The notes beneath the pieces were generated by a model, which was not told where the DNA came from, made no database searches, and saw only the letters and a program-made list of their open reading frames with translations. Shown piece after piece: positions 3,947 to 52,167 of a stretch of DNA of 64,000 bases. A program made the position numbers and the translations under genes. The stretch is from Salinigranum rubrum (GTDB taxonomy: Archaea; Halobacteriota; Halobacteria; Halobacteriales; Haloferacaceae). How positions within the stretch are numbered: position 1 is the first letter of the stretch; each line of letters opens with the position of its first letter. Where the stretch lies: NCBI RefSeq assembly GCF_002906575.1, contig NZ_CP026309.1, forward strand, positions 1,922,001 to 1,986,000. Direction: 5' to 3'.

Positions 3947-4589
3947 GCGTGGGAGACGCCCTGACCTTCTCGGACCGCGAACTCCGTGACCTCGCGCTCG
4001 CGTGGGTCGCACTCGGCGTGGCGTTCGCCGTCTTCTTCGCCGGGGGCGGTGGCGGCCTCGTGGCGCTGCTCTCTCGGGGGGCTTCGCCGCCGCCGTCGTC
4101 GTGAGCCTCCTGACTGCGGGACTGGGATTCCTCCTCCACGAACTCGCTCACAAGGTGGTCGCCGTCCGCTTCGGTCAGGTCGCGGAGTTCCGCGCCGACT
4201 ACGGCATGCTCTTTCTCGCCGTCGTGAGCGCGCTCGCCGGCTTCATCTTCGCCGCACCCGGCGCCGTCTACCACCGCGGCGTCTTATCAGACAAAGAACA
4301 CGGCCTCATCGCGCTGGCCGGTCCCGCGGTGAACCTCGCGCTCGCCGTCGTGTTCGTCCCCGTCTTCCTCGCCGGAGCCCTCGCCGGCAGCGGCTTCCTC
4401 GAACTCGTCGGCTCCAGGGGCGTGGCGATAAACCTCTTCCTCGCGGCGTTCAACATGCTGCCGTTCGGCGCGCTCGACGGCCGGACCGTGCTGGACTGGA
4501 GTACGGTCGTGTTCGTCGCCGTGTTCGTGCCGAGCGTGCTCGTCACCGTCCTCGTCGTGTTCGTGTTCGGCGTGGGCTTCGGCGGCTGA
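3943..4589 (+). CDS. M50 (site-2 protease-type) membrane metallopeptidase (frameshifted)
   Basis: The start is GTG at 3943, overlapping the TraB stop by four bases. The first 45 codons read VSVGDALTFSDRELRDLALA and run into a membrane helix. At the G run 4076-4081 the frame shifts; a seventh G joins the parts to give about 215 aa. The second part has the zinc motif HELAH within LLHELAHKVVAV, several membrane helices, and the third-ligand motif FNMLPFGALDGRTVLDW. These match family M50/S2P, which cuts substrates inside the membrane. The coupling with TraB suggests a shared role in membrane protein quality control or signalling, but no substrate is visible. The break sits in a homopolymer and is probably a sequencing error. 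Confidence 0.85.
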
Positions 4590-4619
4590 CCCGTCGCAGT
4601 GGGGGTGACGTGTTCGCCG

Positions 4620-5237
4620 TCATTCCCGTCGCGTCCGACGCCACCGCTCGGCGAGCACTCCGGCGCCAAGCGCCACGAGGAACCCGACGACGGTGAGGCC
4701 CGGCCTGTCACCCGCGAACGCGAGGGCCGTCGCGAAGAACGACTCCTGTCGGCCGTAGTAGACCAGTCCGCCGGTCGCCGCGTAGAAGCCGACCGTTCCG
4801 ACCGCGGTGAAGACGCCGAATCGCGCCGGGCTCATCCCAGCGAACCCGGCCGGTATCGAGATGACGGAGCGGAGCACGGGGAAGAATCGCCCCCACAGCA
4901 CCGACGATTGACCCCACCGACGGAACCACACGCGCGACCGCTCGACCCGCCCCTCGGAGACGTGGACGTACCGTTCCAGCCAGGTCCACTCGCCGACGTC
5001 CGCCCGGGAACTCACCGCGAACGGGACGAACGCGCCGACCGTACCGCCCACGCCGGCGGCGGCGACGAAGACGAGAAACGAGGCGAGGTCCGTGACGAGG
5101 AGCACCGCGGCGGCCGGGACGATGACCTCGCTCGGCAGGAACGGAAAGAGCATCGACGTCTCGCAGAAGACGAACAGACACAGCGCCAGCGGGCCGTACA
5201 GACGAATGATGTCGAGAGCGGTCGTCGTGAGGTCCAT
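4620..5237 (-). CDS. DedA family membrane protein
   Basis: 205 aa from the ATG at 5235-5237. DedA hallmarks are clear: FCETSMLFPFLPSEVIVPAA near the N-terminus (re-entrant loop with the conserved acidic residue and proline) and GRFFPVLRSVISIPAGFAGM in the middle. Four to six hydrophobic segments span the length and the tail is basic (RWRRTRRE). Known relatives act in membrane homeostasis as lipid or undecaprenyl-carrier flippases; the archaeal substrate is likely a polyprenyl or ether-lipid carrier, which is inference. The gene is convergent with the M50 gene (30 bp apart) and divergent from the nucleoside phosphorylase. A TTTATC box on its strand lies near 5274-5280. Confidence 0.85.
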   Translation of the reverse strand: MDLTTTALDIIRLYGPLALCLFVFCETSMLFPFLPSEVIVPAAAVLLVTDLASFLVFVAAAGVGGTVGAFVPFAVSSRADVGEWTWLERYVHVSEGRVERSRVWFRRWGQSSVLWGRFFPVLRSVISIPAGFAGMSPARFGVFTAVGTVGFYAATGGLVYYGRQESFFATALAFAGDRPGLTVVGFLVALGAGVLAERWRRTRRE

Positions 5238-5313
5238 CGAGGGTCGGTGTCGGTGTAGCGCCTTCGACGCGGAGTGATAAACACCCGTTGCTCCGCTCGC
5301 GGCCACACCGTGC

Positions 5314-5319
5314 TTATAT
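5314..5319 (+). promoter_or_regulatory. TATA box of nucleoside phosphorylase
   Basis: TTATAT lies 26-31 bp upstream of the ATG at 5345. This is the spacing expected of a leaderless haloarchaeal transcript, and it favours 5345 over the two in-frame upstream starts. Confidence 0.6.
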
Positions 5320-5344
5320 GTCCGCCCCCGACCCACGAGGAGCC

Positions 5345-6163
5345 ATGACCGGCGACGCCGAAGACCCGAACGACGAAGTCCAGTACCACGTCGAACTCGC
5401 CCCCGGCGACACCGCCGGGCCCGTCCTCCTCCCGGGGAACCCAGAGCGCGTCGACGTCATCACCGACCTCTGGGACGACTTCGAAGAGCAGGCGTACCAC
5501 CGCGAATACCGCACCGCCACCGGCACCTACGACGGTGCGCCCATCACGGTCACCTCGACGGGAATCGGCTCACCCTCCACCGCTATCGCCGTCGAGGAAC
5601 TCGCTCGCGTCGGTGCGGACACGTTCATCCGCGTGGGCTCGTGCGGCGCGATTCAACCGGGCATGGACGTCGGTGACCTCGTCATCACGTCGGGGGCGGT
5701 CCGACAGGAGGGGACGAGCCACGAGTACGTCCGCGGTGACTACCCGGCCGTCGCGTCTCACGAGGTGGTCTCGGCGCTCGTCGCCGCCGCCGAACGCCTC
5801 GACTACGACTACCACGTCGGGCTGACGATGAGCGCCGACGCGTTCTACGCCGGCCAGGGCCGCGAAGGGTTCGAGGGGTTCGTCGCCGCGGGGTCGGAGA
5901 CGCTCGTCGACGAGTTACAGGAGGCGAACGTCGCCAATATCGAGATGGAGGCCTCGGCGATTCTCACCCTCGCGAACCTCTACGGTCTCCGCGCGGGTGC
6001 GGTCTGTTCGGTGTTCGCCAACAGAGTGACCGGAGAGTTCCAGACCGAAGGGGAGTCGAAGGCGTCAGAGACGGCGAGTCTCGCCGTGTCGCTCCTCGCG
6101 CGGATGGACGAGGTAAAACGCGAGGCAGGTGTGAACGAGTGGCACGCTGGACTGTCGATATAG
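5345..6163 (+). CDS. Nucleoside phosphorylase (uridine phosphorylase-like)
   Basis: 272 aa. This is the PNP/UDP-phosphorylase superfamily: phosphate-binding LLPGNPERVD near residue 35, the TGIGSPSTAIAVEEL stretch, RVGSCGAIQPG, and the purine/pyrimidine-site motif NIEMEASAILTLANL near the C-terminus. The enzyme cleaves nucleosides with phosphate to free base plus ribose-1-phosphate. The motif set is closest to uridine phosphorylase, so uridine is the likely substrate, although archaeal members can be broad. Together with cytidine deaminase elsewhere in the window (35.1 kb) it would complete a cytidine-to-uracil salvage route. The start at 5345 is supported by the TATA spacing and by absence of conservation upstream. 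Confidence 0.87.
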   Translation: MTGDAEDPNDEVQYHVELAPGDTAGPVLLPGNPERVDVITDLWDDFEEQAYHREYRTATGTYDGAPITVTSTGIGSPSTAIAVEELARVGADTFIRVGSCGAIQPGMDVGDLVITSGAVRQEGTSHEYVRGDYPAVASHEVVSALVAAAERLDYDYHVGLTMSADAFYAGQGREGFEGFVAAGSETLVDELQEANVANIEMEASAILTLANLYGLRAGAVCSVFANRVTGEFQTEGESKASETASLAVSLLARMDEVKREAGVNEWHAGLSI

Positions 6164-43667: not shown

Positions 43668-46600
43668 ATGACTTCTCGGGAGACGGTCCGGCGGCCCGGA
43701 CGAACCGTTCGCTGTCGTGGGTGGTGGCGGGTCGCTGCCGTGGCCGTCGTGACGCTTCTCGTGTGTACGACGGCGGCCGTCGCCGCGCCATCTCTCCCCG
43801 CCGGCGACGTGTCGTCTCCGGCGGGGACGGCCGTCACCGGTTGTACCACCATCGACACCCCCGGACGATACGTCCTCACCACGGACCTTCGGGCGCCACC
43901 AGGGACCGACGTCTGCCTGTACGTCCGCGCGAGCGACGTGCGTCTCCGAGGTGGTGGTCACCGTATCGACGGACGCGGGAGCGGCACGGTCGGCGTGGGC
44001 GTCGGCTCCCGGGCCGGGGTTTCGAACGTGACCGTCTCGAACGTGACCGTCTCCGGGTGGCGCGTCGGCGTCGGGTTCGGGAACGTCGACGGCGGGTCGG
44101 TGACGGACGTCGAAGCGCGAGGGAACGGCGACGGGGTTCGACTCGCGCGGACACGTGAGATTCGGGTCAGAGACGCCGTCGCCGTCGACAACGACGGGGC
44201 GGGCGTCCGCGTCTCGGACGGGAGTGCGAACAGCGCCGTCGTCGGTCTCTCCGCGTTCGGAAACCAGCGGGGTGTCCTCGTGGAGCGATCAACGGACACT
44301 GCTATCGTCGACGGTCGGCTCATCGGCACCGAACGGAGCGGGGTTCACCTCCAGAACGCTAGGAACAGCACGCTCCGCGGGACTGTCGTCGTCGGGAGCG
44401 GGCAGTACGGCGTCGAGGTCGCCCAGTCGTCGGGGGTTCGACTCTCGAACGCCGCGGTCGACAGACCGGGACAGACCGGCATCGAAGTCACGAACAGTCG
44501 GGACGTCACGCTCGTCGAGAGCGAGGTGAGAGACAGCGAGGCCCACGGCGTCGAAATCTTCTCCACGAGCGGGTCGCTCCTCCGGGACGTTCGGGTCGAA
44601 GACAGTCGAGGCGTCGGGGTCCGTCTCGGCGGCGCGCCGAACAACGCGCTCCGGAACCTCACGGTCGAGGGCGGCGAGGTCGGCGTGTTCCTCTCCGGGA
44701 GTCGCTCGACGGACGTCCGGGGCATAACTGCGGTCGACGCCGACGTCGGCGTCCGGTTGCTGCGGACCGACGACAGTCGCCTCCGCGACGTTCGGGTCCG
44801 TGAGGTCGGGTCGGCGTCGTACAGCGAGACGCCCGTCGGCGTCCACCTCGACGACGCAGCGGGGAACGTCCTCGTGAACACGACGGTCAGCGGCGATCCC
44901 GGCACGGTAACGAGTACCGGCGTCCACGTCGAAGAGGGCGTCGGGAATCGGGTTTCGACGCTGACCGTCACCGAAACCGAACTCGCCGTGTGGATCCAGG
45001 ACGGCCGGGATCACCTGATCGAGAACGCGACGGTCGAGCGGAACGAGGACCCCGTGGTCGGCAGGGGGACCGAGGGACTGTCGTTCGTCGGGGTCACTGC
45101 GAGAGACAACGACGCCGGGGTCGACCTCCGGGGCGCCCCCGGCGCACGCCTCGTCGGAGTGCGCGTGACCGAGAACGAGGTCGACTCCAACCGCGCGAGC
45201 CTCGAACTGTCGGGTGACGATGTTCAGGTCACGGAGAGCCTCGTCCGCGACAACAACGGGGCCGGTCTCGTGGTGTCGCGTTCGAGAGAGAGCGTCGTCT
45301 CGGACACCGTCGTGCGCGGCAACGCGGGGCACGGACTCCGACTGGCCGGCACCCGTGACACTCGGGCCACGAACGTCACCGTCTCGAACAACGAAGGCGA
45401 CGGGGTCGTCATCGCTCCCGACTCGGGAGACTGGCGACAGGACCCGCTCGCGCCCGCGAACAACACGCTCTCGGCCAGCACCGTTACGGAGAACTTCGGC
45501 GACGGTCTCACTATCAGCGACGCCTCGAACACCACCCTCCGCGGCGTCACGGTGACGAACAACCGTGCGGGCATCGACCTCGACGCGAGTCCGGGGACGG
45601 CCGTCACCGACGCAGTCGTCCGAGCCAACGCCGGAAACGGCGTCAGTATCGCCGATGGCTCGAACGGGGCCACGGTCGCGGGAGTCGACGTCTCACGGAA
45701 CGCGCAGGTCGGCCTCAGCGTGACCGAGAGCGACGGGGTCGGGGTCGTCGACGTGGCGGTGCACCGAAACTTCGACGACGGCATCGAGGTCAGGCGGTCG
45801 GACCGGTTCACGGTCGAGTCGGCCGACACGACCGACAACGGCTGGAGCGGGATATACATCGAGAGCAGTCGGGACGCACGCGTGAGGAACGTGACGGCCG
45901 ACGGGAACCGGGCCGACGGTATCGACCTGTGGGGCGTCGAGGGCTGGTCCGTGGTCGACAGCGTCGCGACCGACAACCGCAACGCCGGCATCGGTCCGAC
46001 CGGCAGCGACGACGGGAGGATAACCGAGAGCAGGGTCGTCGGGAACGACCAGGGAATCTGGGCCAGCGGGGAGAACAACAGCTACACGGACAACGTCGCG
46101 GCGCGAAACGAGATGGGCTTCCTGGTGTCGTCGCCGGGTCGAACCCTCGTCCGGAACAACAGCGCCGTCGGGAACGCCGAACTGGGTATCAGAGCGAGCG
46201 GGCGGGCCGTCGTCGCGGACAACGAGGTCAGAGAGAACGGTGCGGGCGTCCGAGACGACGGCTTCAGCCACGGCGGGGTCGTCGTCTCGAACAACGTCCG
46301 GGTCGACCGAAACCGCGTGGTCGACAACGACGGCGTCGGCGTCCTGGTCAGAGAGTCGAACGTCGCCGTCCGCGACAACCGCATCGCGGGGAACGCCGAC
46401 GCCGGCGTCGAACTCGTCGGGACGACGAACACGACCGTCGCGGGGAACGTCGTCTCGGACAACGAACACGGCGTCGTCGTCGACTTCGGTCGGCAGAGCG
46501 ACCGGCAGGGGCGGAGTATCACGCCCTCCCTGGCGACGACCATCGAGGACAACGTCGTGGAGAGCAGGCGGGTGAACGTGCTGGTCCGGGGCGGGAACGA

Positions 46601-47003
46601 CACCCGCGTCCTCGACAACCGACTCGTCGACGGCAGGGTCGGCGTCCGGGTCGAACCGATCACGTTCCTCGGACCCGGTCGAGAGCGGGAAGCGACCGGC
46701 GTCGAGGTGCACGACAACCTGCTCGCGGACAACCGGGCGTTCGGCGTCGAGAACGTCGGCAGGACGGTCGTAAACGCGACCGAAAACGGCTGGGGAGCGC
46801 CGGACGGCCCGTCGAGTCCCACTGACCCCGACGCGCCGTTCGCCGACCCCGTCACCGGCGCGCTCGCCGACGGCGGCGGCGACGCCGTGTCGGAGAACCG
46901 CACCGACTCCGGCGTCTCGAACGTCCGGTTCGACCCGTATCAGTCGACGAACGCTTCGGTCTCGACTTCGGACGCACGCGCGGAGCGCGACGACGGGGAG
47001 TGA
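43668..47003 (+). CDS. Secreted right-handed beta-helix protein (NosD-like)
   Basis: 1111 aa. A signal peptide (WWRVAAVAVVTLLVCTTAAV) precedes TTIDTPGRYVLTTDLRAP, the usual entry to haloarchaeal NosD-type proteins. From about residue 90 to 1040 it is built of PbH1 rungs of roughly 22-23 residues, many with the pattern V-x-x-N/D-x-x-G-V-x-V, for example NNEGDGVVIAPDSGD and NGWSGIYIESSRDA. The tail is acidic and hydrophilic (SDARAERDDGE), with no membrane anchor or PGF-CTERM, so it is either released or held non-covalently. Beta-helix proteins bind or cleave polysaccharides or act as adhesins. No catalytic residues can be placed. Confidence 0.85.
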   Translation: MTSRETVRRPGRTVRCRGWWRVAAVAVVTLLVCTTAAVAAPSLPAGDVSSPAGTAVTGCTTIDTPGRYVLTTDLRAPPGTDVCLYVRASDVRLRGGGHRIDGRGSGTVGVGVGSRAGVSNVTVSNVTVSGWRVGVGFGNVDGGSVTDVEARGNGDGVRLARTREIRVRDAVAVDNDGAGVRVSDGSANSAVVGLSAFGNQRGVLVERSTDTAIVDGRLIGTERSGVHLQNARNSTLRGTVVVGSGQYGVEVAQSSGVRLSNAAVDRPGQTGIEVTNSRDVTLVESEVRDSEAHGVEIFSTSGSLLRDVRVEDSRGVGVRLGGAPNNALRNLTVEGGEVGVFLSGSRSTDVRGITAVDADVGVRLLRTDDSRLRDVRVREVGSASYSETPVGVHLDDAAGNVLVNTTVSGDPGTVTSTGVHVEEGVGNRVSTLTVTETELAVWIQDGRDHLIENATVERNEDPVVGRGTEGLSFVGVTARDNDAGVDLRGAPGARLVGVRVTENEVDSNRASLELSGDDVQVTESLVRDNNGAGLVVSRSRESVVSDTVVRGNAGHGLRLAGTRDTRATNVTVSNNEGDGVVIAPDSGDWRQDPLAPANNTLSASTVTENFGDGLTISDASNTTLRGVTVTNNRAGIDLDASPGTAVTDAVVRANAGNGVSIADGSNGATVAGVDVSRNAQVGLSVTESDGVGVVDVAVHRNFDDGIEVRRSDRFTVESADTTDNGWSGIYIESSRDARVRNVTADGNRADGIDLWGVEGWSVVDSVATDNRNAGIGPTGSDDGRITESRVVGNDQGIWASGENNSYTDNVAARNEMGFLVSSPGRTLVRNNSAVGNAELGIRASGRAVVADNEVRENGAGVRDDGFSHGGVVVSNNVRVDRNRVVDNDGVGVLVRESNVAVRDNRIAGNADAGVELVGTTNTTVAGNVVSDNEHGVVVDFGRQSDRQGRSITPSLATTIEDNVVESRRVNVLVRGGNDTRVLDNRLVDGRVGVRVEPITFLGPGREREATGVEVHDNLLADNRAFGVENVGRTVVNATENGWGAPDGPSSPTDPDAPFADPVTGALADGGGDAVSENRTDSGVSNVRFDPYQSTNASVSTSDARAERDDGE

Positions 47004-47093: not shown

Positions 47094-47261
47094 ATGTGCA
47101 TGTACTGTACGTTCCGCGAGGACGGCTGGACGGCGCTTCTCGACTACGACGACGTCTATCAGGAGGCCATCGCGGCCCAGCGGGCGCGGGAGACGAACTA
47201 CGGCTTCTACGAGGAGTGGGACGACCTCCGCGAGCAGGTCACGCCGGGAACGGGTCGGTGA
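47094..47261 (+). CDS. Small CxxC protein, 55 aa
   Basis: It begins MCMYCTFREDGWTALLDYDD and continues VYQEAIAAQRARETNYGFYE, with a C-terminal EEWDDLREQVTPGTGR. The CMYC pair right after the start could hold zinc or iron with a partner, or be redox active. An acidic helical remainder makes a small soluble protein. Its last 23 bases overlap the 3' end of the CobW gene on the other strand. It is followed by no other gene in its own direction, so an independent function is likely but unknown. Confidence 0.6.
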   Translation: MCMYCTFREDGWTALLDYDDVYQEAIAAQRARETNYGFYEEWDDLREQVTPGTGR

Positions 47262-48378
47262 CGCTGTCGAGCGACTCCGACTCCCCGACGAGACAGGCGT
47301 CGAGTTCCCGTCTGATCTCTGCCTCGTCCATGTCCGTCCCGATGAACACCAGTCGCGTCCGGCGGTCGTCGCGCTCGTCCCACGCGCCGAGCGGACCGGC
47401 CTGTACCGAAGGGCCGGCCTGGCTCAACCCCATCACGGTGTCGGGCCGACCCGCGAGTTTGAAGAATCCCTTCGCCCGTACGACGTCGCCGCGCCACTCG
47501 TCGAGCCACGCGTCGAACCGCTCGGGGTGGAACGGTTCGTCCGTCTCGTAGGTGAACGTCGACACGGCGTGAGAGGCACCGGCGTGATGGTGTTCGGTAT
47601 CTCCGTGGTGGTCTCCTCCTCCTTCGTCTCCGTGTTCGTGACCGTGCCCGCCCTCCCCGGCGAGGTGTCGTTTCCATCCCGCCGCGCGTCGGGCCTCGCT
47701 GAACTCGAATCGGCCGGTGCCGAGGACGGCGTCGGGGGGGATCTCCGAGTACTCCGTTCGGTACAGGACCGCTCGTGGCTGGAGTTCGCGCACCAGCGCC
47801 TCCACCTCGTCGAGCGCGTCGTCCGGGACGGTGTCGCACTTGTTCAGGAGGAGGACGTCACAGAACTCGATCTGGTCGACGAACACCTCCGAGAGCGACC
47901 GTCCCCCGCCCGCGGAGTCCTCCCGGTTCGTCGCGGGGTCGAACTCCTTCCAGAAGCCGTACGCGTCGACGACCGAGACCATCGTGTCGAGGCGGAACCG
48001 TTCGGTCGGGTCGATATCCGACTCCTCCGTCCCCAGCGTGAACGCCTGTGCGATGGGGACGGGTTCGGAGACGCCGGACGCCTCGACCACCAGGTAGTCG
48101 AACGTCCGTTCCTCGGCGAGACGCGACACCTCCGTCAGGAGGTCACCCTGCAGACCACAGCAGATGCACCCGTTCGAGAGGTCGACGACGCCCGTCTCCT
48201 CGTTCTCCTCCTCGATGAGTTCGGCGTCGACGTTCACGTCGCCGACGTCGTTGACGACGACGGCGATAGTCCGGTCGGCGGGGTTCGCGAGCAGTCGGTT
48301 GACGAGCGTCGTCTTCCCCGCGCCGAGCGCACCGCTGAGTACCGTCACGGGGATGCGGTCGTCGGAGCCGTCGGTCAT
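47239..48378 (-). CDS. COG0523 (CobW/Nha3/YjiA) GTPase, metal chaperone
   Basis: 379 aa. The P-loop is VLSGALGAGKTTLVNRLL. The family metal motif GCICC occurs in VDLSNGCICCGLQGDLL, followed by LVVEASGVSEPVPIAQAFTL and the G4 motif LLLNKCDTV. A histidine-rich loop (GGHGHEHGDEGG, HHGDTEHHHAGASH) at about residues 245-272 should bind zinc or another divalent metal. The CobW-C domain follows, with VVRAKGFFKLAGRPDTVMGL. These proteins deliver metal ions, often zinc under limitation or cobalt in cobalamin synthesis, using GTP. The cupin gene 49 bp upstream on the same strand could be a metal-dependent client. Confidence 0.87.
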   Translation of the reverse strand: MTDGSDDRIPVTVLSGALGAGKTTLVNRLLANPADRTIAVVVNDVGDVNVDAELIEEENEETGVVDLSNGCICCGLQGDLLTEVSRLAEERTFDYLVVEASGVSEPVPIAQAFTLGTEESDIDPTERFRLDTMVSVVDAYGFWKEFDPATNREDSAGGGRSLSEVFVDQIEFCDVLLLNKCDTVPDDALDEVEALVRELQPRAVLYRTEYSEIPPDAVLGTGRFEFSEARRAAGWKRHLAGEGGHGHEHGDEGGGDHHGDTEHHHAGASHAVSTFTYETDEPFHPERFDAWLDEWRGDVVRAKGFFKLAGRPDTVMGLSQAGPSVQAGPLGAWDERDDRRTRLVFIGTDMDEAEIRRELDACLVGESESLDSVTDPFPA

Positions 48379-48427: not shown

Positions 48428-48748
48428 TCAGGGCGCGCCGACGACCACGAGCGTGCTCTCTCGCGGTCCGTTCTCGAGTTGTCGGGACGACGCTGGCGCG
48501 ACGCGGACGGCGTCGCCGGGGTCCAGTGGCACCTCGTCGCCGTCGACGTGGAGCGTCGCCTCGCCCGAGACGAGGTAGTACACCTCCTCGTGGTCGCCGT
48601 CGGCGTGGTCGTGTTCCTTTCCGGTCCAGTTCGGTTCACACTCGACGACGGAAAAGCCGAGGTTCTCACAGCCGAGGGCGTCGCGGAGGAAGTACATGCT
48701 GTCCGCGACCGGGTCGACGTCGCGGTGGTTGACCTTCGTGTAGGACAT
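48428..48748 (-). CDS. Cupin-fold protein
   Basis: 106 aa. The two cupin motifs are clear: KEHDHADGDHEEVYYLVSGE (H-x-H and later Glu metal ligands) and VPLDPGDAVRVAPASSRQLE. The second motif lacks the usual metal-binding His (consensus PGDxxxxPxxxxH ends here in RQLEN), so metal binding may rest on fewer ligands. It is a small single-domain cupin of the kind that acts as dioxygenase, isomerase or binding protein; the substrate is unknown. It is upstream of the COG0523 gene on the same strand, and the pair may be co-transcribed. Confidence 0.8.
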   Translation of the reverse strand: MSYTKVNHRDVDPVADSMYFLRDALGCENLGFSVVECEPNWTGKEHDHADGDHEEVYYLVSGEATLHVDGDEVPLDPGDAVRVAPASSRQLENGPRESTLVVVGAP

Positions 48749-48880
48749 GCGCGAGAGAGAAGACGGGCCGCAGGTAAGTATGTGCGGGGCGACCGAGACG
48801 GGAACTTCGAACCGTACCAGACACTCCGCTCCGAGAGGACGTGGGGACACGACTAAACCACCGACTGACATCTACCGGGC

Positions 48881-49555
48881 ATGCGCCGAGGAGAGACCCC
48901 CAATCGGGGGACGTTTCTCGTGGGAGTCGCCGCCGCGACGCTCGTGGGTGTCTCGGTCGCGACCGGTGTGAGCGCCACGGCCGTCGCCGCCCCTCCACTC
49001 GCCGAGACCACCTCGTCGGTCGAAACCGCCGATGCCACGCGACCGACGCCCGCCGACCAGACGAAGGGCGAGACGCCGCCGAACGTCAGTTCGACCCTCC
49101 ATCGACTGGTCGACGCGGACGACCGCGAGGCGTTCGCGTCGGCACACGGCATCGACCTGCGGGACGGGCGGGTCGTCGTCGTCGTCGAACTCCGTGGCCG
49201 CTCGACGCTTCCCGACGGGTACGACGCCACGGTCCAACAGACCGCGACGGTGGGCGGCGAGACGTTCGTCCAGGCGTGGGTCCCCGTCGACCGTGTCGTC
49301 CCGCTCGCCGAAGAGCCAGGAGTGGCGTACGTCAGGCTTCCCGACCGGGCCGACGCGAGCGGGTCGGCGTCGGCCAGCGCTCCCTCGAAGGGTGAGCGGA
49401 CGGCTGCGCCGGACGCTCGGTCGACTGCGCGGGAGACGGACGCGCGAGAGGCAGAGTCCCGACCGACGACGCGGAACACGGACGTCCTCGTCGTCGTCGT
49501 CGCCGTCGTGGTGGCGGTTGTCGCGGTCGGCCTCTACGGGAGGGTGCGTCGATGA
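48881..49555 (+). CDS. Membrane-anchored extracellular protein with subtilisin-propeptide (I9)-like domain
   Basis: 224 aa. A signal sequence (TFLVGVAAATLVGVSVATGV) is followed by a Thr/Ser-rich linker and a small alpha/beta domain at about 85-152. That domain reads GRVVVVVELRGRSTLPDGYD, then VGGETFVQAWVPVDRVVPLA, EEPGVAYVRLPDR. It lines up, without gaps over much of its length, with the propeptide region of the subtilase encoded next (ERVRVVVELDGEHP..., TLVQVRLPTANVTTVEALPW, VQRVRRPAQP). A Ser/Ala/Glu-rich spacer and a C-terminal membrane helix (VLVVVVAVVVAVVAVGLYGR) with VRR end follow. Its stop overlaps the subtilase ATG (ATGA at 49552-49555), so they are translated together. It probably serves as inhibitor, folding aid or anchor for the protease. 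Confidence 0.8.
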   Translation: MRRGETPNRGTFLVGVAAATLVGVSVATGVSATAVAAPPLAETTSSVETADATRPTPADQTKGETPPNVSSTLHRLVDADDREAFASAHGIDLRDGRVVVVVELRGRSTLPDGYDATVQQTATVGGETFVQAWVPVDRVVPLAEEPGVAYVRLPDRADASGSASASAPSKGERTAAPDARSTARETDAREAESRPTTRNTDVLVVVVAVVVAVVAVGLYGRVRR

Positions 49556-52167
49556 CGTCGCACTCGTCCCGGTTCGCCGTTTCGTGTCTGACACTCGTCG
49601 TCGTCTTCGCCGGCGTCATCGCCGCGGCGCCCGGACTCGGGGCGGCAGAGGCGGTTCAGGACGCGAAGACGCCGGTCGGCACGCCCGGTTCTGAAGACGG
49701 ACCGGGCGGGAACGCGACTGTCGCCGAAGCGCCCGGACCGCCCTCGAAGTCGTCACAGTCGCTCCGTGACGAGCGCGTCACGGGGTCGGTCGCGTCCGCG
49801 GGAGCGTCGGCATCCGCACAAGCGTCGGCGCCCGCCGAGGAGCGAGTCCGGGTCGTCGTCGAACTGGACGGGGAGCACCCGACGGCGTACCGCGAACGGC
49901 TCCGCACGCACGGCGCCCGAATCGAGGTGGAACACGACACGCTCGTTCAGGTCAGACTCCCGACGGCGAACGTCACGACGGTCGAGGCGCTCCCGTGGGT
50001 CCAGCGGGTGCGGCGACCCGCCCAGCCGACACCGACCGTCGTCAGCGAGGGCGTCTCCGTCGTCGACGCCGACACGGTTCACGCCGCGGGCGTCTCCGGC
50101 GACGGGGTCCGGGTGGGCGTCGTCGACCTGGGCTTCGACCCGTCGGCCACCGAGATACGCGACAACGTCGTCGCCTCGCGGTCGTTCAGGGCGACCCAGC
50201 CCGGAGCGAACGACCGCTCTCACGGGACGGCCGTGTCCGAACTGGTCGTCGACACCGCACCGAACGCCAGCCTCTACCTCGCGACGGTCGACACCGACGT
50301 GGAGTTCGCCGCCGCCGTGTCGTGGCTCCGTGCGAACGACGTCGACGTCATCACCGCTTCGGTGAACTGGGTGAACCAGCCGTACGACGGGACCGGCTTC
50401 GTCTCGCAGGTCGCCGACGAAGCCGTCGCCGACGGAATCGTCTGGACGAACTCGGCGGGGAACTACGCGCGTCGCCACTGGGAATCCGAGTACAGAAACA
50501 CGGACGGCGACCGATGGATCGAGTTCGCTCCGGGCGACGAGCGGAACTACCTGAACGACGGTCGACCGTTCGACGGGCGCGTCGGCGTGAGCCTCAGCTG
50601 GAACGACTGGCCGCAGTCGGACAACGACTACGACCTGTTCCTCTACCGCGACGTGCCGCCGTACGGTTCCCGCTCACAGGGCGAGGACGTTCTCGTCGCC
50701 CGGTCGACTCGCGCACAGACCGGCTTCCAGCGCCCGACGGAGTTCGTCGGCCCGACGGTCGAACGCGGCGTCTACTACGTGACGGTCGCGAACTACGACG
50801 CCGACGGGAGTCACGTCCTCGAACTGTACACCCGCGACGCGGCCGGGTCGCTCGAACACGAGACGCCCGAGAGCAGTCTGGCCGCGCCCGCAACCGCGCA
50901 CGACGTCGTCGCCGTCGGCGCGTTCGACTGGCTCGGCGGCGGCGTCGAACCGTTCAGTTCCCGGGGGCCGACGAACGACGGTCGGCGAGGGATCGACGTC
51001 GTCGCGCCGGACCGGGTCTCGACGAGTCGGTACTTCTCGTTCGCCGGCACCTCCGCCGCCGCACCCCACGTCGCCGGCGTGAGCGCGCTCGTCCGCGAGC
51101 GGAAACCGGGCGCGTCGCCCCGGGAGGTGGAACGACGGCTCCAGGAGGGAGCCGTCGACGTCGGCCCCGTGGGGCCGGATACGACGAGCGGGTACGGTCG
51201 ACTGAACGCGACCCGGGCGGTGTTCGGCCAGGGTGACCTCGGTGTCATCGGCGTCGGCGAGACGCGGCGGAGCGTCCTCGACCCGCAGGACCCGTTCGCA
51301 CCCGCGTTCCGCGGCACCCACGAACGCGTCGCGCTGTCGGGCGTCGAGGGCGTCCGCGTCGACATCGAGATGCGGTCGACGGAGCGGGGAGGGGACCCGT
51401 ACCTCTTCCTCCTCGCGCCGAACGGGAGCGTCGTCGCACAGGACGACGACGGCGGGGCCGGACTGAACGCGAGCCTCGTCCACACGTTCGCCCACACCGG
51501 CCGGTACACCGTCGTCGCGGCGGGATTCGGGGAACGGGACACGTTCCCGTACGAACTGTCGGTGGTCGAACGACCCGAGCCGACGGCCGTCTCGCTGGAA
51601 CTCTCCGCGGAGACGACGACCGTCGAGACGGGAGAGCCCGTCACGTTCACCGTCGTCCGTGCGGACACCGGTGCGCCGGTGAACGCCACGCTCCTGCGCG
51701 ACGGTGGACAGACCATCGCGGGAACGGACGGCACAGCCGTCGTCCGATTCGACCGACCGGGGACCTACCGGGTGACGGCGACGGCCCCGCCGACGGCGAC
51801 CGAGCGGTTCATCGACAGCGAGGTGACGGTCACCGTCGAGGCCGCGGACCCCGACCCGCCACGGTTCGAGGTCGGCCCGCTGTCGACCCCCGAGACGGTC
51901 CAGCGGGGCGACCACGTCCGGGTGGCGGCGACGGTCACGAACACCGGTGAGCGCGCGGGCACACAGACGGTCTGGGCCGGCGTCGACCAAGACGGTGACG
52001 GGACCCTCGACCCGGTCGTCCACGAGACCGTCGAACTCGATTCCGAGGAAACGTACTCGGTCTCCCGTCCGGTGTTGATTCCGCGGTACCTCTCGCCGGG
52101 GACGTACACGGTCGGCGTGTGGACGGAGAACGAAACGGTGACGACGACGGTGCGAGTGGAAGAATAG
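49552..52167 (+). CDS. Secreted subtilisin-like serine peptidase (S8) with inserted beta-domain
   Basis: 871 aa. A signal peptide (FAVSCLTLVVVFAGVIAAAP) is followed by a Ser/Ala/Gly linker to about residue 95, then an I9-like propeptide domain (about 97-158). The catalytic triad is Asp192 (VVDLGFD), His224 (DRSHGTAVSEL) and Ser501 (FAGTSAAAPHVAGV); the oxyanion Asn304 is in TNSAGNYARR. Between Asn304 and Ser501 a beta-sandwich of the PPC type is inserted (NDWPQSDNDYDLFLYRD... VYYVTVANYDADGSHVLELY). C-terminal regions are a second PPC-like domain (about 570-680), an Ig-like domain (about 685-770) and a CARDB-like domain (775-871). There is no C-terminal anchor. It acts outside the cell, probably on proteins. 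Confidence 0.88.
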   Translation: MTSHSSRFAVSCLTLVVVFAGVIAAAPGLGAAEAVQDAKTPVGTPGSEDGPGGNATVAEAPGPPSKSSQSLRDERVTGSVASAGASASAQASAPAEERVRVVVELDGEHPTAYRERLRTHGARIEVEHDTLVQVRLPTANVTTVEALPWVQRVRRPAQPTPTVVSEGVSVVDADTVHAAGVSGDGVRVGVVDLGFDPSATEIRDNVVASRSFRATQPGANDRSHGTAVSELVVDTAPNASLYLATVDTDVEFAAAVSWLRANDVDVITASVNWVNQPYDGTGFVSQVADEAVADGIVWTNSAGNYARRHWESEYRNTDGDRWIEFAPGDERNYLNDGRPFDGRVGVSLSWNDWPQSDNDYDLFLYRDVPPYGSRSQGEDVLVARSTRAQTGFQRPTEFVGPTVERGVYYVTVANYDADGSHVLELYTRDAAGSLEHETPESSLAAPATAHDVVAVGAFDWLGGGVEPFSSRGPTNDGRRGIDVVAPDRVSTSRYFSFAGTSAAAPHVAGVSALVRERKPGASPREVERRLQEGAVDVGPVGPDTTSGYGRLNATRAVFGQGDLGVIGVGETRRSVLDPQDPFAPAFRGTHERVALSGVEGVRVDIEMRSTERGGDPYLFLLAPNGSVVAQDDDGGAGLNASLVHTFAHTGRYTVVAAGFGERDTFPYELSVVERPEPTAVSLELSAETTTVETGEPVTFTVVRADTGAPVNATLLRDGGQTIAGTDGTAVVRFDRPGTYRVTATAPPTATERFIDSEVTVTVEAADPDPPRFEVGPLSTPETVQRGDHVRVAATVTNTGERAGTQTVWAGVDQDGDGTLDPVVHETVELDSEETYSVSRPVLIPRYLSPGTYTVGVWTENETVTTTVRVEE

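Follow-up and report, generated by a model that had tools for sequence, protein, structure and literature searches.

Here we describe two consecutive genes on the + strand of the 4.97-Mb genome of Salinigranum rubrum, lying within a 64,000-nucleotide stretch (contig C1, 1922001-1986000) that we refer to in full as the window. The first gene encodes a small protein and the second an S8 subtilase, and comparisons with relatives confirm, at the level of sequence, that a domain of the small protein (residues 65-157) is homologous to the propeptide of the protease encoded next to it, making the small protein a candidate membrane-fixed inhibitor of that protease. The features of the locus are as follows.

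48881..49555, + strand: small gene (224 aa; open reading frame (ORF); family kept in 26 loci; purifying selection in six pairs)
48881..48991, + strand: signal peptide, about residues 1-37 (from sequence; lines up with lipobox signal peptides in 21 relatives)
49073..49351, + strand: propeptide-like domain, residues 65-157 (hhalign with decoys, BLASTP bridges, AlphaFold2 predicted local distance difference test (pLDDT) 82.7)
49352..49477, + strand: Ser/Ala/Thr-rich spacer, residues 158-199 (read from sequence; missing in lipoprotein relatives)
49478..49540, + strand: C-terminal transmembrane helix, about residues 200-220, then a basic end (maximum 19-residue hydropathy 3.01)
49552..49555, + strand: ATGA overlap of protease start and small-gene stop (read in sequence)
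49552..52167, + strand: S8 subtilase gene (871 aa; Pfam Peptidase_S8 4e-26, PKD 1.2e-5)
49834..50037, + strand: the protease's own propeptide, residues 95-162 (alignment of propeptides; profile match to 3whi)
50125..51054, + strand: catalytic domain span, D192 to S501 (invariant columns, 27 sequences)
50125-50127, 50221-50223, 50461-50463 and 51052-51054, + strand: catalytic residues D192, H224, N304 and S501 (invariant columns)
50584..50811, + strand: insertion between N304 and S501, beta-sandwich/jelly-roll-like (weak profile match to 3afg, Tk-SP C-terminal domain)

The ATGA overlap of the two genes, pointed out in a first-pass annotation of this DNA, is present at 49552-49555 with both ORFs in place, and that annotation's outline of the small protein was also borne out: the signal peptide and the Ser/Ala-rich spacer can be seen in the sequence itself, and the C-terminal membrane helix is supported by its hydropathy (3.01). 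The signal peptide has a hydrophobic core and AVAA at its end and contains no cysteine, hence no lipobox, and by this measure the window small protein is not a haloarchaeal lipoprotein. A search of Pfam and NCBIfam with the small protein gave no match above cut-off, and its family has neither a name nor a Pfam model in the libraries searched. The Pfam model Inhibitor_I9 (PF05922) was unmatched by 23 small proteins, by 18 haloarchaeal propeptides, and by the propeptide of the window protease; no PrcB family model appeared when 23 members of the small family were compared with Pfam up to E = 10; and a full-length profile of the family matched only lipoprotein signal peptides in the PDB. In all 26 loci the small protein is encoded separately from the protease precursor, with its own ORF, start and signal peptide.

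The protease is composed of a signal peptide, a propeptide and a split catalytic domain, followed by PKD and CARDB-like modules. Its membership in S8 is given by the Pfam match (PF00082, 4e-26) and by invariant catalytic residues, with profile matches to subtilisins at 1e-36 and better, and when propeptide and catalytic domain are joined in one profile, its alignment with pro-subtilisin E (3whi) extends into the propeptide, beginning at chain residue 20. The likeness of the N304-S501 insertion to the C-terminal domain of Tk-SP (3afg), at about 8 bits, is suggestive only. By C-terminal hydropathy no PGF-CTERM anchor was found in the window protease, which ends in ...TVRVEE without a hydrophobic segment. 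The whole genome (G000) holds only two S8 protease genes, this one and another on contig C6 (16736-17560).

Homology of the small protein to the protease propeptide

The motifs on which the first-pass annotation based its alignment of the small protein with the neighboring propeptide are indeed present in both (RVVVVVELRG / RVRVVVELDG; TFVQ...P / TLVQ...P, with equal spacing; PGVAYVRLP / PWVQRVRRP). Since a direct comparison of the two window sequences gives a BLASTP E of 0.12 (single comparison), the window pair alone would not exclude chance, and the decisive evidence for the homology comes from relatives. Profiles of the small family and of the propeptide family were aligned by hhalign over 87 columns (probability 97.7, E = 1.5e-12), and the trimmed domains yielded a score of 57, whereas 10 catalytic-domain windows did not exceed 8.6 and 20 column-shuffled decoys did not exceed 5.4. 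A profile made from small-protein domains only also picks up, at E-values as low as 4e-13, propeptides within long subtilase ORFs of other archaea. In BLASTP with a fixed search space of 500,000 residues, the small protein of locus L133 matches its neighboring propeptide at E = 8e-16, with 38% identity across 141 residues that include the signal peptide, and the window small protein matches the propeptide of the L134 subtilase at E = 9.5e-11. A VRxP motif directly behind the last strand is also common to small proteins and propeptides; in L105 and L106, Q replaces its R in both partners.

AlphaFold2 predicted the window domain as a single sequence with a pLDDT of 63, for which the Foldseek result was uninformative. 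With the window propeptide supplied as the sole second row, the pLDDT was 82.7 and the predicted template modeling score 0.74, with a helix-helix-strand-strand-strand-helix-strand topology; as the second row is the window propeptide itself, this model is not independent proof of the fold. A Foldseek search of the two-row model against the PDB (350,542 chains) had a best E of 0.14, with 4i0w, 3whi, 8gko, 8gkq and 4yn3 in the top 50, where the prodomains are the CspB prodomain (rank 3), pro-subtilisin E, and the fungal alkaline protease and cucumisin propeptides. The propeptide profile retrieved 13 weak sequence matches in the PDB, three prosegment chains among them (1scj, 2z58, 1spb), and one weak Pfam CspB_prodomain match was found among the protease propeptides. 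The model agrees with a propeptide-like fold whose first helix has been moved or replaced. The structural comparison, as proposed in the first pass, gave a confident domain and several subtilase prodomains in the Foldseek list, though with weak E-values.

A tree of 55 domains sets the small proteins apart by one branch (support 81/91, 83% of bootstrap trees), and their neighbors are the propeptides of non-halophilic subtilases. This arrangement of sequences suggests one old duplication of a pro-region, with support that is moderate because the domain is short.

Distribution, anchoring and evolution of the pair

In total, 26 loci with the small gene were identified, spread over eight archaeal families. 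An order-wide search with the full-length profile matched 343 of 392 genomes, nearly all of these matches falling in the lipobox region at E = 1e-9 to 1e-3; from that search only matches covering the domain (E below 1e-14) were taken as members of the small family. The small gene lies directly upstream of a subtilase gene on the same strand in 22 of the 26 loci, usually overlapping it (by 1, 4, 8, 20 or 23 bases) and elsewhere separated by 1-6 bases. Such tight pairs occur in families f1, f4, f7, f12 and f17 and, outside the haloarchaea, in f22, f31 and f44. The 19 adjacent pairs from haloarchaea are those of the window, L048-L051, L053, L055, L057-L061, L064 and L097-L102, and the other three (L133, L134 and L135) belong to other families of the same phylum. 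We would like to note that L064 was found via adjacency, not by sequence search, and is not independent evidence for pairing. Chance adjacency was rejected as an explanation, given 22 adjacent pairs in 26 loci versus two S8 genes in the window genome. The gene pair is old and conserved, and because the small gene comes just before the protease gene and the two overlap, both are probably made from the same message. The two-gene system postulated in the first-pass annotation therefore passed the test of co-occurrence in other genomes that was named there; the module is also wider than haloarchaeal, as the three pairs from outside that group show.

Among the adjacent pairs, the partner subtilase of L098 is frameshifted, and that of L055 (reverse strand) falls into two ORFs, 764 and 933 aa long, with a 4-base overlap, the second ending in PGF-CTERM. 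Three further loci (L104, L105 and L106, all in f4) hold divergent lipoprotein members 208-581 bp before a subtilase that has no recognizable signal peptide, although its lipoprotein partner is exported. The remaining locus, L103, has an orphan small gene beside subtilase fragments. In this locus (4282-5894), a chimeric ORF whose end (IGFGQVDASAAYDGL) resembles a subtilase C-terminus comes just before the orphan, and a second subtilase fragment lies at 1876-2277 on the opposite strand, so that the locus is rearranged and broken. At L062 (reverse strand) and L063 (6804-7055), 83-aa ORFs directly before the subtilase have the N-terminus of the L059/L060 lipoprotein (STRRRFV...GTSGKTGGTGGET) and lack both the lipobox cysteine and the domain, and we read them as decaying copies of the small gene.

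Since the window protein as a query was matched in 14 of the 171 genomes of its own family (two of these matches being rejected), the module is patchy within that family. Weak small-protein matches in G030 and G098 were rejected for partial coverage and the lack of a subtilase nearby. A protease search of genome contigs returned one distant Bacteroidetes subtilase only, and no members were found in the viral contigs and plasmids searched. In the window itself, a 1111-aa parallel beta-helix (NosD-like) surface protein is encoded upstream of the pair (43668-47003), and between the two are a CobW-type GTPase with a His-rich stretch (47239-48378) and a cupin (48428-48871), both on the minus strand.

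All 26 small proteins carry an export signal and a membrane anchor, the latter being a lipobox cysteine in 21 and a C-terminal helix in five. The lipobox cysteine is found in 21 of 23 haloarchaeal members, whose chains end 2-21 residues after the domain, close to the expected end of a processed propeptide. The two cysteine-free haloarchaeal members, those of the window and L102, have instead a 67-79-residue extension with a C-terminal helix, and a C-terminal helix is likewise present in all three non-halophilic small proteins (L133-L135). The kind of anchor thus varies but an anchor is always there, which suggests that attachment to the membrane is important. Among the partner proteases, most have a PGF-CTERM-like anchor of their own at the C-terminus, those of the window, L053 and L102 being without one. 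At L052 (5850-6992 and 7530-12101) and L097 (reverse strand), a near-identical C-terminal membrane segment (GGGPGPLLIAGVVIVVLALVAALY and similar) is common to neighboring surface proteins and the subtilase, in which it replaces PGF-CTERM; this is possibly another sorting signal or a tail exchanged by recombination.

These anchors bear on the suggestion of the first-pass annotation that the small protein might tether the protease at the cell surface. On this reading, the anchored domain would keep hold of a protease that has no anchor itself. The proteases of the window and L102 do lack an anchor and their partners are helix-anchored, and among haloarchaeal pairs a helix-anchored partner accompanies 2 of 3 unanchored proteases versus 0 of 15 anchored ones (Fisher p about 0.02, computed by hand with L055 counted as anchored). 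Nevertheless, the proteases of the window, L102 and L047 belong to a single clade, so that this may be one event, L053 combines an unanchored protease with a lipoprotein partner, and the small proteins of all three non-halophilic pairs are helix-anchored, one of them (L133) beside a PGF-CTERM protease. Because most partner proteases are anchored by their own C-terminus and so need no tether, and their small partner is typically a lipoprotein, tethering is unlikely as a general role, and we consider it an improbable account of the pair.

In six pairs of small-gene relatives, the ratio of nonsynonymous to synonymous substitution rates (dN/dS) is 0.19-0.57, as under purifying selection. This value, retention with an anchor across eight families, and an apparently single ancient origin all speak against a vestigial, functionless duplicate of the propeptide, a reading to which the loss or decay of the small gene in several lineages lends some color but which we regard as very improbable. 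Distances between small proteins correlate with those between protease catalytic domains (r = 0.80; 0 of 5,000 permutations). Once row and column means are removed, cognate small domains and propeptides retain an excess similarity of 0.237, as high as which none of 20,000 permutations came, and this in-register value compares with at most 0.101 in 87 mis-registered shifts; within the 17 haloarchaeal pairs only, the excess is 0.129 versus at most 0.074 out of register. Compositional bias was rejected as the source, as the effect vanishes in the mis-registered shifts. The simplest reading of these sequence patterns would be co-adaptation to the same catalytic surface.

Proposed function and comparison with known systems

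Subtilase propeptides fold their enzyme and then inhibit it, and both activities are possible in trans, the CspB prodomain being an example (PMC3567191). Stand-alone propeptide-like proteins are potent inhibitors, and one of them, SUB1-ProM, is encoded beside its target SUB1 (PMC6993865). Active halolysin trapped inside haloarchaeal cells kills them (PMC6085418). We favor, with moderate confidence, the reading that the small protein acts in trans as a second, separately encoded propeptide, serving as a membrane-fixed inhibitor of its cognate subtilase. Homology, anatomy, ancient pairing, purifying selection and position-specific co-variation are observed; from them we infer physical binding, to which the support is indirect, as well as inhibition and a benefit to the cell. 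The small protein would be exported and held on the outer face of the membrane, by a C-terminal helix here and by an N-terminal lipid in most haloarchaeal relatives. It would occupy the face of the catalytic domain on which the enzyme's own propeptide sits, placing its C-terminal segment close to the active-site cleft, and the bound enzyme would stay inactive at the cell surface until removal or degradation of the lock. Such a lock may conceivably also protect the S-layer, as the first-pass annotation proposed. Partner proteases retain their own propeptide and, where checked, their catalytic residues, so an obligatory folding helper would be redundant and the second copy is likelier a regulator or safety lock.

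Several points weigh against this reading. The small gene is dispensable, because several close relatives have the subtilase without it (L047, L052, L054 and L056) or with an 83-aa remnant (L062 and L063). The standard I9 helix alpha-1 seems to be missing from the model, its place perhaps taken by N-terminal helices, and in both families VRxP stands where BPN' has acidic helix-capping residues. The window protein continues for 67 residues beyond the domain, and its tail is therefore unable to finish in the cleft in the way of a processed propeptide. The co-variation could arise from gene conversion, and together with the distance correlation it shows linkage or a shared partner, not inhibition.

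The main rival is a membrane-anchored intermolecular chaperone or dock that aids folding and display of the protease, with inhibition not required. Its anatomy would be that of the lipase-specific foldase Lif (anchor, variable low-complexity linker, client-binding domain; PMC7046727), the PrcB lipoprotein is encoded first in the dentilisin operon and is needed for the PrtP protein (PMC8167434), the CspB prodomain chaperones in trans (PMC3567191), and in the archaeal pairs the helper gene likewise comes first and overlaps the next. On the other hand, the archaeal proteases keep their own propeptide, relatives without the small gene keep intact-looking proteases, and a PGF-CTERM or C-terminal helix of their own is present in most of the proteases; we judge a chaperone or dock unlikely. 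A wider version of the inhibitor reading, which we put forward tentatively, is that of an ancient archaeal two-gene zymogen lock, in which a duplicate of the propeptide split off before or early in haloarchaeal evolution and became a surface-bound immunity protein. As the first gene of the operon, it would have had its anchor type swapped between lipid and helix with anchoring kept, and it would guard the producer, and perhaps its kin, from the producer's own cell-surface or secreted protease.

A stand-alone propeptide-like protein is already known as a kind: such inhibitors occur in fungi, plants and apicomplexans, for which a convergent origin has been suggested (PMC6993865). The archaeal, membrane-anchored, operon-coupled form appears to be new, and our search of the open-access literature retrieved no description of such an archaeal module. 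In the archaeal family the origin can be read directly, as the inhibitor candidate and the propeptide are still recognizably the same domain in adjacent genes. The pair makes testable how secreting archaea control their cell-surface proteases, and the roughly 20 natural cognate pairs give material on which propeptide-protease co-evolution can be measured.

The closest counterparts are SUB1-ProM of Plasmodium, TgMIC5, POIA1, the yeast proteinase B inhibitor and Arabidopsis SPI-1, which are likewise stand-alone propeptide-like subtilase inhibitors (PMC6993865). They have in common with the archaeal pair a separate small gene and a domain related to or mimicking a propeptide, and SUB1-ProM also lies in a conserved locus beside its target. 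Unlike the archaeal form, they are eukaryotic and no membrane anchor is described for them in PMC6993865, whereas the archaeal proteins have a lipid or helix anchor, gene overlap with the protease, and sequence homology to the cognate propeptide. The CspB prodomain folds and then blocks its protease and works in trans, and CspB has a jelly-roll insertion in its catalytic domain, but this prodomain lies within the precursor and there is no separate anchored gene (PMC3567191). In the dentilisin operon PrcB-PrcA-PrtP of Treponema denticola, a small lipoprotein also comes first in a surface-subtilase operon; homologues of PrcB, however, are reported only in oral treponemes (PMC8167434), and the small family gave no match to the PrcB family here. 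PopC of Myxococcus xanthus is a subtilase restrained by a dedicated partner, PopD, which is degraded on signal; PopD differs in forming a complex with PopC inside the cell and blocking its secretion, PopC having no signal peptide, whereas both archaeal partners have export signals (PMC6434023). Finally, the steric chaperone Lif/LipH resembles the small protein in its membrane anchor, unstructured linker and client-binding domain but belongs to another family and has another client (PMC7046727), and because the archaeal proteases have kept their own propeptide, they should not need a foldase as the clients of Lif do.

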